From: Bernardetiaceae bacterium
GTDB lineage: Bacteria > Bacteroidota > Bacteroidia > Cytophagales > Thermoflexibacteraceae
Reading direction: 5' to 3'
NCBI GenBank assembly: GCA_025454895.1
Contig: JALONO010000075.1
Span: forward strand, 1 to 34,213
DNA length: 34,213 nt
Shown: positions 4,938-34,057 of the stretch, piece by piece
Layout: each line of letters opens with the position of its first letter
Numbering within the stretch: position 1 is the stretch's first letter
Notes under the pieces: generated by a model
Told to the model about the DNA's origin: nothing
Databases searched by the model: none
The model's input: only the letters and a program-made list of their open reading frames with translations
Translations under genes and position numbers: made by a program

Positions 4938-6020
4938 TTAAAACCCGCGCCGTTTGCTGCTGGTTTTGGGCTTTTGCTTGGGCGTGCGTTTCATGTACAG
5001 GCGGTTGGGCCTAAAAGTAGGCCCGGGGCTGGACGGGTGCTCGATTTTACGCCGGAATTTGGTGTTGCTGCGGCCTTTTTGGGCACCAAACACCTTGGTT
5101 TTTAGGTGGTTGAACTTGTAGCCCAGCATAATCTCGTTGGTGCTGCCCGCAATGTTCTGGATCTCGGAGGTGGCGAAGTCGCGGGCGAAGCCCACCCGCA
5201 GGCGCTTGATGTGGAGGCCCACCGCCGCCACGCTGGAATAGTTGGTGCGGTAGGCCGCGTTGAACCACAGCGTGTTGTTCCAGGTGTACTGCACGCCCAC
5301 GTCGAACTGCATGGGCACGGCCCCGTTGCCCACCCGGCGCACCATCAGCATCGGCTCGATGCGGTGGACCTCGTCAAAGGTTTTGAGCGTGCAGCGGGCG
5401 GCCAGCAAAAAGTGCGGCACCATCTGGATGTCGTTGTCGTTTTGGTCAATGGAGCGCAGGCCCGCCGTGAGAAACTGCGGCATCGTAAACCCGATCTGGA
5501 ACTTGTCGCGGAACATGTAGTTCATCCCAAAAGTGAACTCTACGCCTTGATAGTTGCCCGTGTTGTCAATGATTTTGGGGTCGTTGGGGTTGACCACGTA
5601 AATATTGCTGAGGTCGATGCGGTTGGTTACCAGCCCGCCCGTGAGGCCAAAGGAGAACACGGAGCTGTTTTCGTATAGTTCAAAAATGTGGTAAGCATAG
5701 GTAAAATGCACCTTGTTTTGCTGGAACAGGCCAATCCGGTCTTGGAACACGTTGACCCCCACGCCGCTGCGGTATTCGTAAAACGGCAGGTCGATGGTGG
5801 CCAGCAGGGTGGTGGGCGCGCCGGGAATGTTAGTCCACTGGTTGCGGTAGGTCAAATTGACCGAGGCAAAGCGGTCCAGCCCGGCCCAGGCGGGATTGTA
5901 AATGAGCGGGTTGTTAAAGTACTGGCTAAACAACGGCACCTGCTGGGCCTGGATTTTGGGGGTTATCGTAAGCCAGGCCAGGGCGAGCAAAGGGCCGGCT
6001 TTCAGTAATGTTTTCTTCAT
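4938..6020 (-). CDS. PorP/SprF family type IX secretion outer-membrane protein
   Basis: The product has 360 residues with a signal peptide ending at about IQA25. The family's N-terminal block follows: QQVPLFSQYFNNPLIYNPAWAG. A beta-barrel-like region with alternating strands extends to about residue 312 (EIMLGYKFN). SprF of Flavobacterium johnsoniae is needed for secretion of its operon partner SprB, and type-B T9SS cargo genes are typically followed by such a gene. Here the 1209-residue cargo gene lies 103 bases upstream on the same strand, so the pair almost certainly forms an operon. Unusual is a basic, proline-rich tail of about 45 residues (315-360, with FRRK, RTPKQKPK and SSKRRGF) beyond the barrel. 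It could contact peptidoglycan or a periplasmic partner, but that is inference. Confidence 0.9.
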   Translation of the reverse strand: MKKTLLKAGPLLALAWLTITPKIQAQQVPLFSQYFNNPLIYNPAWAGLDRFASVNLTYRNQWTNIPGAPTTLLATIDLPFYEYRSGVGVNVFQDRIGLFQQNKVHFTYAYHIFELYENSSVFSFGLTGGLVTNRIDLSNIYVVNPNDPKIIDNTGNYQGVEFTFGMNYMFRDKFQIGFTMPQFLTAGLRSIDQNDNDIQMVPHFLLAARCTLKTFDEVHRIEPMLMVRRVGNGAVPMQFDVGVQYTWNNTLWFNAAYRTNYSSVAAVGLHIKRLRVGFARDFATSEIQNIAGSTNEIMLGYKFNHLKTKVFGAQKGRSNTKFRRKIEHPSSPGPTFRPNRLYMKRTPKQKPKTSSKRRGF

Positions 6021-6123: not shown

Positions 6124-9100
6124 TTAGTTGAGCACGGTAAATGACCCTCGGAGCGGCCGGTTGCCCGTGCCCGCCCTAATGAGGTAAAAGTACACGCCGT
6201 TGGGGATCACCTTACCGTCAATGGTACCGTCCCAATTGTTACGGTAATTGCGGCGTTGCAAAATCTCTTGCCCCCAGCGGTTGAAAATGATCACCGTGTT
6301 CTCGGGGAAACTTTCCAACCCGTCCACGTGCAGCACGTCGTTGCGGCCGTCTCCGTCGGGGGTGATGATGTCCACTACGCGCAGTACGTTGGCCAGGTCG
6401 GTGGCCACCCGCACCACCATGGTATCCACACTGGTACACCCGGCCGGGTCGGTGCCCCGCACAATGTAGGTGGTGGTTTCCAAGGGGGCGGCAATGGGGT
6501 TAGGGATCGAGTCGTTGTCCAGCCCATCGCGCGGGAACCACACATAGCGCGAGGCCCCGGTGGCATTGAGGCGGATGCTCTGCCCCACGTTCACGATGGT
6601 GTCAGGCCCGGCATCCACGTCCGGCAAGTCCAAGACCCGGATGGGTACCGACAAACTGGTGTCGCTGAAGCAACGGTTGCTCACAATGCGGCGATAGTAG
6701 GTGGTGGAGTCGGGGCCAACGTCGAGCACCAGGTTTTCGGCCACGGCCCGGTTGATGTTGGTCCACTGGCGGCGGTTGCGCGAGGTTTGCCACTGATAAC
6801 GGAACACGTTGGTGCCGTCGTCGGGCATTTGGCCGCGCAGCGTATCGGGCCGGCTGCCCCGGCAAATGGTTTGGCCACCGCCCAAAATTTGGTTGCCCCG
6901 GATAAACCGGGTGATGAACACCGTGACTACGTTACTGGTATCCACAAAACACTCGGTAAACACCAACCGGCGGAAACGGGAGGTTTGGTTAATATCGGGG
7001 AAGAAGTCTCGGGTGGAGGCCACCGTTTGCCAGGCTTGGCCCGTGCCGCCCACTTGCCGCTGCCAAACGAATTGGAAATTGCCGTCGCCGCCCACGGGCA
7101 CGCTGCCGCGCAGGGTATCGGGGCGCACGCCCAGGCAAACTTCCTGGTTATCGCGGATGCGGTTGTTGTCCACCCGATTGATAATGGTGATTTTGATGAT
7201 ATTGCTCGTGTCGGGCCGGCATTGGTTGGCCACCACCACCCGGCGCACGTAAGTGGTGCGGATCAAGTTGGGCGGCGAGTAGTTCACTGAAGTATCGGCC
7301 AAGGCCCAGCCCAGGGGCCGCCCTAGGGTGTCGGCCTGGGTGGATACCTCCCAGCGGTAGCGGTAACCCCCGCCCCCGCCCTGGGGGATCTCGCCCCGGA
7401 TGGGGTTGATGGGGCTGCCCTCGCACAGGGTTTGGGTACCCGTAATGCGGTTATTGGTCAGGTCCGGCACAATGCTTACAAACACCCGGTTGCTCGTATC
7501 GCCTTGGCAGCCGTTGAACACAATGCGGCGGAAATAGGTGATGCGGCGGGTCAAGAAACCGGGGCGGTACTCCATGCTGGTGCCGGGGTCGCGGCGGTTA
7601 GCCTGGGCGGTATCGCGGCTAAAGCCAGCGGTGTCGATGTTGGCCCAGTTCACGGTATCGGGGGATAGCTGCCACTGGTAGCGGAAACTGCCCAACGGCG
7701 AAGTGGACGAGGTGCCCCGGAGGATCAAGGCCCGGGCACTCACCGTATCGTTGTTACAGTTGATGGTAGAGCCGCTGATGGTGTTAGGCCCGTAGTTAAA
7801 GGCCCGGCCCAGGCGGATCACGTTACTGGTATCGGCCACGCAGCGGCTGCGCACAATGCGGCGGATGAAGGTGGTATCGGAAATATCCTCGACCCTAAAA
7901 GCGATGCTATCAGCCGTGCCCCGGTTGTTCCAGTCGCGCCGGTTGAGCGATGATTGCCAAAGGAAGCTGTACTGCCCACCCCCGCCGTTGATCGAGAAGG
8001 TGCCGCGCACGTTCACGCGCGTGGTGTCGCCCGCGCAAACCACGTCGCGGTCCGAGCGGATGACGTTGCCGTTAATGGGCCTGACCACGCTAATGGCCAC
8101 CACGTTGCTGGTGTCGGTGTTGCAGGGGCCTACCACCAGTCTTCTAAAATAAAGCGTGGTATCGATCCGGTACAAAGGCAAAAAGGTGGAAAAAGTATCG
8201 GCCCGGTTGGCGGTGTCGGCCCGGAGCCAGGTGCGGCGGTTGGCCGAAACTTGCCACCGGAACCGGAAGTTCACCGTGTCGCGGGTGCGCAAAATCGAGT
8301 CGAGGCGGATGGTGTCGCGCAAGGCCAAGGCCCGGCCGCCCCGGCACACCTCTTGGTTAAAGCCCACGATGTTAGACGGGAAACGCGGCGACCGCACCAC
8401 CCGCACCACATTGCTGGTGTCCACAAAGCAGATGCTATCGGCCACCAGTCGGCGGAACAGCACTGTATCGTTGGTGATGCGCTGCGGGCGGAAATTGACG
8501 GTAGCGTCTTCGTTGCGCCAGGTGCGGCCTTGGTTAATCGAGCTTTGCCAGGTGTAGCGCAGCCGACCCGCTCCGCCAGTAACTGGGCTAACCCCCCGGA
8601 AGGTGCGCACCGAGTCGCCCGGACACAAAATGTACGAACTGCGGATTTGGTTGTTTTGGATGCGGCCAATGAAGGTAACCGACACAGTGTTGCTGGTGTC
8701 GGTGGTACAGCGGCCGTCGGAGGCCAGGCGGCGGAACTGGGCCCGCACGCCCAGCGAAGGTGGCTGGTACTCGGCCGTGTTGCCGCCCACGTTTACCCAG
8801 GTACGGCCGCCGTCGGTGGTGCGTTGCCACTGGTAAGTAATGGGTAGGCGGATGGGCGAAGTAACGGCTGGCCCCCGCAGGTTAGGGATGGCCTGGCCTT
8901 CGCAAAACACCGACTCGCGCGGCTCGATTCGGCTCCCACTCACAAAACAGGGGTTTACCCGCACCACCACTGTATTGAGCCACAGGGTTACCCCCGGCAC
9001 GTTGGAGTTGGTGATGCGCAACCGGTAGCCGCCCTGGTCTTGCAACCGGCGGATGTCGTCGATAAACAAGTCGGAAGTGGAGGACGAAGGCCCAAACGGG

Positions 9101-9753
9101 GCCCCGTTTTTAAACCATTGGTACACGTTGGCCGTGCCGCCCACCCGGGGCACAAACCGCAGCACGGCCCGCTCGTCGAGGGTGAGGGTGGTGTCGCGGC
9201 CCAGGCTATCCTGTGGGGCCAACGTAGCCCCGGCCACACTGCTATTAGGCTCAAAACTATCAAAGGCCAACTGGTTGTTGGCCGCGTTGAGGCTGGTAAG
9301 GCTGGTGGTGGTCCTGAAACTGGGCAAACTAGTGAGGAAGTTGCGGTTCAGGTTAATGGTGGTGATCCTGGTCAAGGTAGCCAACCGCTCGGGCACGGCC
9401 CCGGTGAACTCGTTGTTGGCCAGGTTGAGGGTGGTTAGCTCGGTGAGGGCCCCGATCTCGGCCGGGATGCGCCCGCGTAGGCGCTGGCCACTCAGGTTAA
9501 GGCCCGTAACCCGCCCGGTAGCATCGTTGGGGGTAACGGTTACGCCCGTCCAGGTGTTGATGCTGGCCAGGGCGTTGGGGGCATCCACGGGCCAGGCCAA
9601 ACCCGTAGTGGGGCCGCCAATAGCCGTATAAATTGCCCGTAAGGCGGTCAAGTCTGCTTCGCGGCCCGCGTTGGGGTTGGGCGTTTGGGCTTGGGCGGCC
9701 CCCAACAAGTTCAGTCCAATAATAAAGGTGAGGGTATATCTCCAAAAGCGCAT
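6124..9753 (-). CDS. Large secreted LRR / tandem-repeat protein with type-B T9SS (gliding-motility-associated) C-terminal domain
   Basis: This 1209-residue protein starts with a signal peptide ending near AQA22. It has a leucine-rich repeat segment (about 80-165, e.g. LTTLNLANNEFTGAVP), an Ig-like domain (about 180-268) and then eight related Ig-like modules of roughly 85-100 residues (about 275-1040). Each module carries a C..DTSN motif and most a YxWQ or FxWQ motif. A PKD-like domain follows (about 1045-1125). The last 83 residues match the gliding-motility-associated CTD: ITPDGDGRNDVL, IFNRWGQEI, NWDGTIDGK, IPNGVYFYLI. Type-B CTD proteins are exported by T9SS and held at or released from the cell surface; an adhesin or surface-filament role is plausible. 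Its PorP/SprF partner is next downstream. The repeat modules are diverse, arguing against recent slippage expansion. Confidence 0.9.
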   Translation of the reverse strand: MRFWRYTLTFIIGLNLLGAAQAQTPNPNAGREADLTALRAIYTAIGGPTTGLAWPVDAPNALASINTWTGVTVTPNDATGRVTGLNLSGQRLRGRIPAEIGALTELTTLNLANNEFTGAVPERLATLTRITTINLNRNFLTSLPSFRTTTSLTSLNAANNQLAFDSFEPNSSVAGATLAPQDSLGRDTTLTLDERAVLRFVPRVGGTANVYQWFKNGAPFGPSSSTSDLFIDDIRRLQDQGGYRLRITNSNVPGVTLWLNTVVVRVNPCFVSGSRIEPRESVFCEGQAIPNLRGPAVTSPIRLPITYQWQRTTDGGRTWVNVGGNTAEYQPPSLGVRAQFRRLASDGRCTTDTSNTVSVTFIGRIQNNQIRSSYILCPGDSVRTFRGVSPVTGGAGRLRYTWQSSINQGRTWRNEDATVNFRPQRITNDTVLFRRLVADSICFVDTSNVVRVVRSPRFPSNIVGFNQEVCRGGRALALRDTIRLDSILRTRDTVNFRFRWQVSANRRTWLRADTANRADTFSTFLPLYRIDTTLYFRRLVVGPCNTDTSNVVAISVVRPINGNVIRSDRDVVCAGDTTRVNVRGTFSINGGGGQYSFLWQSSLNRRDWNNRGTADSIAFRVEDISDTTFIRRIVRSRCVADTSNVIRLGRAFNYGPNTISGSTINCNNDTVSARALILRGTSSTSPLGSFRYQWQLSPDTVNWANIDTAGFSRDTAQANRRDPGTSMEYRPGFLTRRITYFRRIVFNGCQGDTSNRVFVSIVPDLTNNRITGTQTLCEGSPINPIRGEIPQGGGGGYRYRWEVSTQADTLGRPLGWALADTSVNYSPPNLIRTTYVRRVVVANQCRPDTSNIIKITIINRVDNNRIRDNQEVCLGVRPDTLRGSVPVGGDGNFQFVWQRQVGGTGQAWQTVASTRDFFPDINQTSRFRRLVFTECFVDTSNVVTVFITRFIRGNQILGGGQTICRGSRPDTLRGQMPDDGTNVFRYQWQTSRNRRQWTNINRAVAENLVLDVGPDSTTYYRRIVSNRCFSDTSLSVPIRVLDLPDVDAGPDTIVNVGQSIRLNATGASRYVWFPRDGLDNDSIPNPIAAPLETTTYIVRGTDPAGCTSVDTMVVRVATDLANVLRVVDIITPDGDGRNDVLHVDGLESFPENTVIIFNRWGQEILQRRNYRNNWDGTIDGKVIPNGVYFYLIRAGTGNRPLRGSFTVLN

Positions 9754-32013: not shown

Positions 32014-33209
32014 ATGAAAAAGTTAACGTTTTCTCTACTTCTCTCTCTCTCTCTCTAACTTAGCACTAGCGGGTGCTTGGGCTAGCGACAATCACCCATG
32101 TAATTGGTTTAGCTACCGTTATAGGGTGAGTGTGAGTATCGATCAACTCACCTGTGAAGGCGGCTTTAACGTTTACAGAAATATTTATTCATCCTCCGAT
32201 AGGGCTTGCTCCTTTCCCGTGAGTGTCGGTGGCCAATTTGAGTACCAGGTCATCTATCTTGGCTGTACCCCGATACCTTATTTTGGACAAAAGGCTTATG
32301 TATATGCTTATTGCGGGTCAGATACGTGTTACCAAAATTCTTACACTATTGGTACGTCCATGACTGCTGGCTCCCCATTGGCTACGAGTGTTTTCCGTGC
32401 AAACTCGACCATGCGGTTGCCTGTATTGGGTAAAATGGGTGATGTTAGCCGTAGCGGTTGCCGAATGTCGCAAGGAGAGTCGATTAAAAGGGGGCAGTCC
32501 ATTATTTTAAGAAACTTAAGGACAACCCTTAGTCACGGCAAGGGTTTTGGTACGGAAGCCCTGTCGCAAGTGGTTGTGTGGTATGCGGAAAGTAAGGAAG
32601 ACACACTGATTACCGAGAAAAAAATACTTTGGGAAGGTAAAATAGGGCTGACCAATGGCGCACTTAAAACCTATGGCGGTTTTGATATGAGCTATGCCAA
32701 AACCCGAAGCATCAATGCCGATTCGGTGGTGATGGAGTATAATGTTCCCGAATACGTGGTGAACTTACCGGCCCACATTGATATGGATAGGGTAGTGGTA
32801 ACTTACCATTCTGATGCTCGAGGCGGCTTGGATGCGAAGGCTCAACAGGCCGAGGTAGCGGAGTATGCCCTGTATCCGAACCCGGTGGATGGTCAAATCA
32901 AGATCAACTTTAAAACTGCTTTAGAAGCTGTTTGAGTTATTTTCTATGGCTGTAAGCACCATCTTTTGGCTGCAACTTCACCACCATTCTTGACCATAAA
33001 TCTATTATGGCATGTACTTCTTAGCCGAAGACATGGAAGGCGCGATTTATTACGGGCCTAACCATGACCAACAAAAGACATTCAAGCTAGAAAAAGGAAA
33101 AAAGGAATACCAAGTCGACGCAAACGACATCCCTAGCGGGGTTTTGATCATTGAGTTGCGTAATAAGTATGCGGTTTTTGAGCGTAAGAAACTCATCAAA
33201 ATGAATTAA
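32014..33209 (+). pseudogene. T9SS-secreted protein gene broken in the signal peptide CT repeat and in the type-A sorting domain
   Basis: ATG 32014 begins a signal peptide (MKKLTFSLLLSLSL) that meets TAA 32056-32058 right after a (CT)8 tract at 32041-32056. In the +1 frame the rest of a good signal peptide (SNLALAGAWA) and a cysteine-rich, otherwise unrecognised body continue to 32935. (CT)9 or (CT)6 would restore one frame. The body ends in the start of a type-A T9SS sorting domain (AEYALYPNPVDGQIKINF). A stop at 32933-32935 and about 65 bases of non-coding-like sequence intervene. The domain then resumes in another frame from about 33012 (MYFLAEDMEG, DIPSGVLIIELRN, KKLIKMN). The first break could be phase variation; the second makes a working secreted product unlikely as sequenced. 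Confidence 0.75.
32041..32056 (+). repeat. (CT)8 dinucleotide microsatellite inside a signal-peptide coding region
   Basis: Eight CT units run from 32041 to 32056, immediately preceded by TT. As sequenced they put the start frame into a TAA at once. Adding one unit or losing two puts the signal peptide in frame with the body, as expected of slipped-strand phase variation. Confidence 0.85.
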
Positions 33210-33215
33210 CTCGAA

Positions 33216-33260
33216 ACCCTGTCCAACTTTAGTAAATCAAAAGTTGGGCAGGGTCATCTT
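33216..33260 (+). terminator. Terminator after the broken T9SS cargo gene
   Basis: ACCCTGTCCAACTTT (33216-33230) and AAAGTTGGGCAGGGT (33240-33254) form a 15-bp stem with one G-T pair and a 9-nt loop, followed by CATCTTTT. It sits just after the stop at 33209 and before the next gene at 33284. Confidence 0.75.
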
Positions 33261-33283: not shown

Positions 33284-34057
33284 ATGCGCAATTTAATTTG
33301 GTTGTTAGGGTTGATTTGCCAGACAGGTTTGGCCCAAACGTGGCACTTACAGTTAGCTTGGCAGCGCACCCATACCAACTTGGTGCGGAGTGACCTACCC
33401 AGTCAGTTGAATGCCGCTGGTACCACGGGCCGACATGGAGGAATGGTAGGACTTGAGCGCGACTTAGGCAAACGTTGGTGGGTAGGTGGCTATTTTTCAA
33501 TGGGGGAGATGAACTACCAAGTGCAAGGTTCCCTCTCCAATGAATTTGAACTGTCGGGCACCTACCTGCCCCAATACTTTGGCCGGGCACTAGAGGCCCG
33601 GGTAGGCTTTATGCCTTGGCAAAGCTCGATTGGCCGGTTGCGCCTTTTGTTGAATACTGGATTATCGGTTCATTGGGTGCGCCAAAATGGCCAAACTTAT
33701 TCCACGTTTACTTTCGGGAACAGCGATTTTGAGTGGAGCCAAGTTGGCTTTACTCTCATGCGGAATTTGGATTTACACGAAGGGCAATTTACCTCACTTA
33801 ACGTTGGGGCCGAACTTCGGTGGAATCTCTCCAGGCGCATGGGCGTGCGCCTAGGAGGTCAATATGGCTATGCCTTGTCCGCCATGCCCACCGCGTATTA
33901 TGCGGTGGATGTTCGATACAAACGGAAAAGCTCGGATCAAGTAAGTTTCAATCAAGTCCGTTACCAGATGGCCCCCCGACTAAACCGGTTGGTGGTAGAG
34001 ATGGGCTGTTTTTACTCTTTCGGGAAGATCAAAAGCCATGAGTCTGAACCGAGATGA
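33284..34057 (+). CDS. Predicted outer-membrane beta-barrel protein
   Basis: The 257-residue protein has a signal peptide ending near GLAQ18. It shows alternating hydrophobic/aromatic strands typical of a porin-like barrel (WWVGGYFSMGEMNY, LEARVGFMPW, LLLNTGLSVHW, LNVGAELRWNLS, VRLGGQYGYAL). The last strand-like stretch, LVVEMGCFYSFGKI, is followed by about 8 polar residues. I recognise no specific family. Its codon use is AT-richer than the core of the window, like the preceding broken cargo gene. The terminator at 33216-33260 argues for separate transcription. Role unknown. Confidence 0.7.
   Translation: MRNLIWLLGLICQTGLAQTWHLQLAWQRTHTNLVRSDLPSQLNAAGTTGRHGGMVGLERDLGKRWWVGGYFSMGEMNYQVQGSLSNEFELSGTYLPQYFGRALEARVGFMPWQSSIGRLRLLLNTGLSVHWVRQNGQTYSTFTFGNSDFEWSQVGFTLMRNLDLHEGQFTSLNVGAELRWNLSRRMGVRLGGQYGYALSAMPTAYYAVDVRYKRKSSDQVSFNQVRYQMAPRLNRLVVEMGCFYSFGKIKSHESEPR

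Follow-up and report, generated by a model that had tools for sequence, protein, structure and literature searches.

The opa genes of Neisseria carry CTCTT repeats in the leader, and in Bacteroidota the main known route to phase variation is DNA inversion. Parts of a 2025 review name only inversion as the mode of phase variation for Bacteroides (PMC11868660). In Helicobacter pylori oipA a CT tract lies within the 5' signal-peptide codons, and the number of its units sets the gene ON or OFF via the reading frame (PMC10564699). The genes described here resemble oipA, and also sabA, babB and other hop genes, in that a CT tract is located in the leader of a surface protein and that several genes of one family are involved. 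Unlike the hop genes, however, they code for lipoproteins and T9SS cargo of Cytophagales instead of Hop porins, and here the switch is read from sequence alone. With Neisseria opa they share the repeat in the signal-peptide codons, the multigene family and the independent ON/OFF states, but the opa repeat is a pentamer and its products are integral outer-membrane proteins of Pseudomonadota. With the inversion systems of Bacteroides (capsule promoters, SusC/SusD) they have in common the phase variation of surface structures and the phylum, but those systems employ an invertase and inverted repeats, whereas the genome studied here would rely on a change of repeat length that needs no dedicated enzyme. 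No record of repeat-based phase variation in Bacteroidota was found in the open-licence literature. As far as this literature shows, repeat-length switching would be new for the phylum, the mechanism itself being known, as in H. pylori oipA.

The window, i.e. the whole stretch of 34,213 nucleotides that was analysed, is contig JALONO010000075.1 from the draft genome of a Bernardetiaceae bacterium (4.58 Mb, 389 contigs, 95.6% completeness). Towards its end, on the forward strand, an ATG (32014-32016) opens a frame of signal-peptide codons that closes at TAA 32056-32058 after 14 amino acids (MKKLTFSLLLSLSL*; 32014-32058). The leader contains a (CT)8 tract at 32041-32056, read directly from the sequence (TRF calls TC x 8.5 at 32040-32056). 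In another frame of the same strand follows the body of a secreted protein (32057-32923), which begins where the signal peptide ends (..NLALAGAWA-SD..) and reaches into the first part of a T9SS type A sorting domain (..YALYPNPVDGQIKINFKTAL). The ORF as such runs from 32057 to a stop at 32933-32935, i.e. over 292 amino acids. When the number of units is changed in silico, 6 and 9 units join the signal peptide to the body, and 4, 5, 7, 8, 10 and 11 units give products of only 12-17 amino acids. The re-phased frame displays a Sec signal peptide by inspection (MKKLTFSLLLSLSLS..LALAGAWA-SD); signal peptides were assigned by eye throughout. The first-pass annotation had stated that the length of the CT repeat cuts the ATG and signal peptide off from the body and that nine or six units would give an unbroken signal peptide joined to it, and both statements hold. 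Dinucleotide shuffling of the window, repeated 100 times, never yielded a (CT)8 tract, and a Markov estimate predicts about 2e-5 tracts of eight units for the whole genome, so that the tract is far beyond chance. Start codon and body are thus separated by a non-triplet tandem repeat of a length well above chance, as is typical of a contingency locus.

The assembled body matches no family in Pfam or NCBIfam, including the Hop porins, and the likeness to H. pylori is therefore one of mechanism only. No paralogue of the window gene was found within its own genome, and an AlphaFold model of the body, computed from 2 sequences, has a mean pLDDT of 44 and was not used for a fold search. Two other ways of expressing the body were considered and rejected as main explanation: programmed frameshifting, as the homologue in Thermoflexibacter ruber has neither a tract nor a shared slippery site, and a downstream start within the body (GTG 32126), as this would omit the signal peptide.

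Beyond ..YPNPVDGQIKINFKTALEAV the body is cut short by a MITE-like repeat that begins at 32924. This MITE piece comprises 97 bp on the forward strand (32924-33020), extends from the left end GAAGCTGTTTGAGTTA... to ATGGCATGTA, followed by only CTTC of the right end, and provides the stop codon TGA 32933-32935 after ..LEAV. It is flanked by the two copies of a TTA target-site duplication, read from the sequence at 32921-32923 and 33021-33023. On its 3' side the rest of the sorting domain (33024-33209, forward strand; AEDMEGAIYYG...ERKKLIKMN*) continues the body's reading frame across the empty site. The piece has 7 further matches in the genome (83-100 bp, 94-100% identity), where the element is present about a dozen times, partial copies included; a longer query brings out copies of nearly full length (about 150-170 bp; C117:2313-2464, C344:3869-4035), along with half copies, several of them at contig ends. 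The 97-bp insert is a MITE-like insertion, and its short form may be real or may reflect an assembly collapse inside the repeat. Several contigs break inside the MITE.

If the MITE is left out, the flanks are in frame and the C-terminus scores 28.1 bits against PF18962 (cut-off 27) and 19.1 bits against TIGR04183, the latter under the cut-off of 23. As judged by this profile match, the window gene is T9SS cargo by ancestry: with the MITE left out it combines, like T9SS type A cargo (TIGR04183 / PF18962), a Sec signal peptide with a C-terminal sorting domain, and it departs from that type by its out-of-frame leader, the MITE-cut domain and the TIGR04183 score below cut-off. With the MITE in place, the body matches neither profile, and the assembled gene is without a whole sorting domain at any CT phase. 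Consequently, as the MITE cuts this domain, re-phasing alone would not yield a normal T9SS cargo; a switch to ON would now produce a protein that is exported via Sec but has a truncated sorting domain, and its export or anchoring by the T9SS would probably be lost. The term switchable T9SS cargo, used in the first-pass annotation, is hence apt for the gene's ancestry, the missed TIGR04183 cut-off aside, but not for its present state, and that annotation overlooked a second lesion, i.e. the MITE that supplies the stop. The organism itself very probably possesses a T9SS: the window encodes a PorP/SprF family protein (4938-6020; TIGR03519, 224.9 bits) as well as a cargo of T9SS type B (6124-9753; TIGR04131, 55.6 bits).

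The tract of the window gene is part of a small set. CT/GA tracts of at least 6 units occur only four times in the 4.58-Mb assembly, and all four are located directly behind the start codon, in the export leader of an exported protein. One of the two CA tracts, an (AC)14, likewise lies in an export leader, and AT tracts of at least 7 units are absent from the whole assembly. Apart from the window, the genes concerned are C212 ((CT)10 at C212:23304-23323), which codes for the lipoprotein MKIILSLSLSLILITAC and is ON; C252 ((CT)11 at C252:7623-7644), which is OFF with a body open over 327 codons; C285 ((CT)8 at C285:4477-4492), OFF with a body open over 344 codons, a call made less certain by an alternative GTG that is in frame with the body just 5' of the tract; and C299, where the (AC)14 (C299:4162-4189) is placed between ATG and lipoprotein signal and the gene is OFF with a body open over 368 codons. 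In the assembly the leader is thus out of frame in 4/5 tract genes. In silico, every one of the five loci is ON at some unit numbers and ends in a premature stop at others. The OFF bodies of C252, C285 and C299 are intact and join the leader in one of three phases; the window gene, in contrast, has no intact body, being cut by the MITE.

C212, C252, C285 and C299 are paralogous lipoproteins (C285-C299, E = 2e-18), so that the five tracts represent fewer than five independent events. A profile built from the four retrieves no fifth member in the genome, i.e. 4/4 members found carry a tract. Homologues of these lipoproteins are present in 35/390 Cytophagales genomes, own genome counted, and none of the 29 homologous loci examined in other Cytophagales genomes has a dinucleotide tract of at least 5 units. 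This suggests that the tracts originated in this lineage and do not simply follow from the presence of signal peptides. A further (AC)11 tract (C84:5464-5485; L055 1963-1985) precedes a small ORF for an exported protein (MKAKVIKMLMVAFCLVTGAPDQ..) by about 45 bp and is possibly a switch in the promoter or leader region.

Similar tracts are found in other genomes. A start-codon-plus-CT pattern detects 3 loci in the own genome and 10 loci in 8/389 other genomes of the order, and a stricter version detects 9 loci in 5/394 other genomes of the phylum. Several of the matches elsewhere in the phylum are out of frame and followed by long intact bodies. Tandem paralogues in genome G270 have 8 and 18 CT units, respectively, between near-identical flanks, and in G447 one paralogue has 13 units (OFF) and another 11 (ON), the tract being the sole indel near the start. 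These differences in length between paralogues are the nearest to evidence for slippage that we obtained, and they fit slipped-strand phase variation. A gene in G465 (L088 349-1552) encodes a T9SS type A cargo with (CT)10 in the leader, is OFF and has an intact sorting domain (TIGR04183 37.5 bits, cut-off 23; PF18962 36.6 bits, cut-off 27), and as a candidate for a T9SS cargo that can be switched it is cleaner than the window gene. Some pattern matches do not represent switches: L062, L087 and L089 show no long body joined to the leader in the phases examined; the leaders of L064, L065 and L066, of six units, are in frame.

A second lipoprotein family, unmatched to that of the window genome, comprises L063 and L070 (G270) as well as L061 and L069 (G327); the two genomes represent two genera of a single taxonomic family. 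The leaders of these genes contain 7 to 18 CT units and are all OFF, and L069 has a further stop within its body. Two more sets of exported proteins consist of three paralogues each, L090, L099 and L103 (G447) and L091, L096 and L098 (G760); here the CT tracts of the leaders have 9 to 18 units, one gene is ON and the others are OFF, and the body of L098 is shortened.

How the state of the window gene came about can be explained in several ways. It may be a decaying pseudogene, in which drift of the CT number brought the leader out of frame and the MITE cut off the C-terminus, with no selection to switch. This we consider a possible, though not the probable, course of events. Two independent lesions in one gene are in line with decay, as is the scarcity of homologues: searches in the proteins of 98 relatives, in 390 genomes of the order and in two scans of 84,980 species revealed only one clear homologue, in T. 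ruber, a member of the Thermoflexibacteraceae (Cytophagales) like the window genome (28-30% identity), and beyond it just one match of 31 residues. The T. ruber homologue (L010 1450-2563) lacks a CT tract and is itself broken twice, by an in-frame TGA (1519-1521) just after the signal peptide and by a frameshift in the sorting domain. Taken alone, the family of the window gene would fairly be read as one in decay. The 292-codon body, however, is free of other stops, and decay of a single gene does not predict a tract of the same type, placed alike, in three further genes that are OFF but have intact bodies.

Errors of assembly or consensus offer another route to the same picture: the true tract would preserve the frame, the MITE piece would be a collapse and the gene would be intact. 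Dinucleotide tracts are prone to consensus errors, and among the 389 contigs several start or end inside the MITE, so that the joint 33016/33017 may be a collapsed repeat. Nevertheless, this explanation is unlikely as four OFF tracts would have to be misread identically, and the TTA duplication together with the in-frame empty site indicates a real insertion, whatever its true length. Finally, the tracts might be a mere by-product of codon use and of signal peptides rich in Leu and Ser, with no role in switching. An LSLSLS stretch does fit the core of a signal peptide and C212 is in frame, but 4/5 tract genes are out of frame, the (AC)14 of C299 encodes HTHTHT ahead of the hydrophobic core, and homologues in relatives do without tracts. 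Moreover, codon usage does not account for the CT tract because TCT is rare, providing 3.8% of the Ser codons in the window (CTC provides 20% of the Leu codons); given LSLSL, the probability of CTC TCT CTC TCT CTC is about 1e-5. We thus regard a by-product as highly improbable.

The set of tracts is best explained by phase variation of exported proteins through strand slippage, which we propose with good confidence. Slipped-strand mispairing in replication would add or remove CT units within the leader codons; start codon and signal peptide would thereby come to share the frame of the exported body or lose it, about one third of the unit numbers being ON. The genome would then harbour at least five contingency loci, i.e. 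those of the four paralogous lipoproteins and that of the window gene as a former T9SS cargo, which would switch in living cells and presumably confer a fitness benefit. The tract of the window gene would belong to this set, and later insertion of the MITE would have silenced the gene, in the assembled population at least. The idea that CT slippage turns genes ON and OFF, first raised for the window gene, gains strong support on the scale of the genome (4/4 CT and 1/2 CA tracts in export leaders, three intact OFF bodies, the tract lengths of paralogues elsewhere) and weaker support for that gene itself. With moderate confidence we further propose that several Bacteroidota lineages have independently evolved phasomes of CT/CA tracts in export leaders, which would switch small gene families encoding surface lipoproteins as well as T9SS cargo, the window gene being a switchable T9SS cargo that was later silenced by a MITE.

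If this is true, the type of switch known from Helicobacter and Neisseria extends to a phylum that comprises gliders, degraders and gut commensals, and environmental Cytophagales possess a repeat-length phasome whose targets are lipoproteins and T9SS cargo. As annotation pipelines readily label tract genes as frameshifted or as pseudogenes, such genes are easily lost.

Downstream of the window gene, a strong hairpin with a T-rich stretch (33216-33254, forward strand; MFE -24.3 kcal/mol, z = -6.0) is likely to act as terminator between this gene and the next, although it is absent from the list of a consensus terminator scan. The next gene (33284-34057, forward strand) encodes an outer-membrane beta-barrel-like protein with a signal peptide and a weak Pfam match (PF03797). 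Genes for small proteins of this kind are located directly 3' of the window gene, of the lipoprotein genes C285 and C299 and of the T. ruber homologue (window 33284-34057; L059 1284-1931, reverse strand; L056 3201-3860, forward strand; L010 2587-3399). BLASTP detects no homology between the barrels of the window and of T. ruber; a clear sequence relationship exists only for those that follow C285 and C299. For 3/5 tract genes a copy of the MITE is located within the gene or no more than about 3.3 kb away (window 32924-33020, C212:20310, C252:3326), a nearness that looks above expectation for about a dozen copies in 4.58 Mb.
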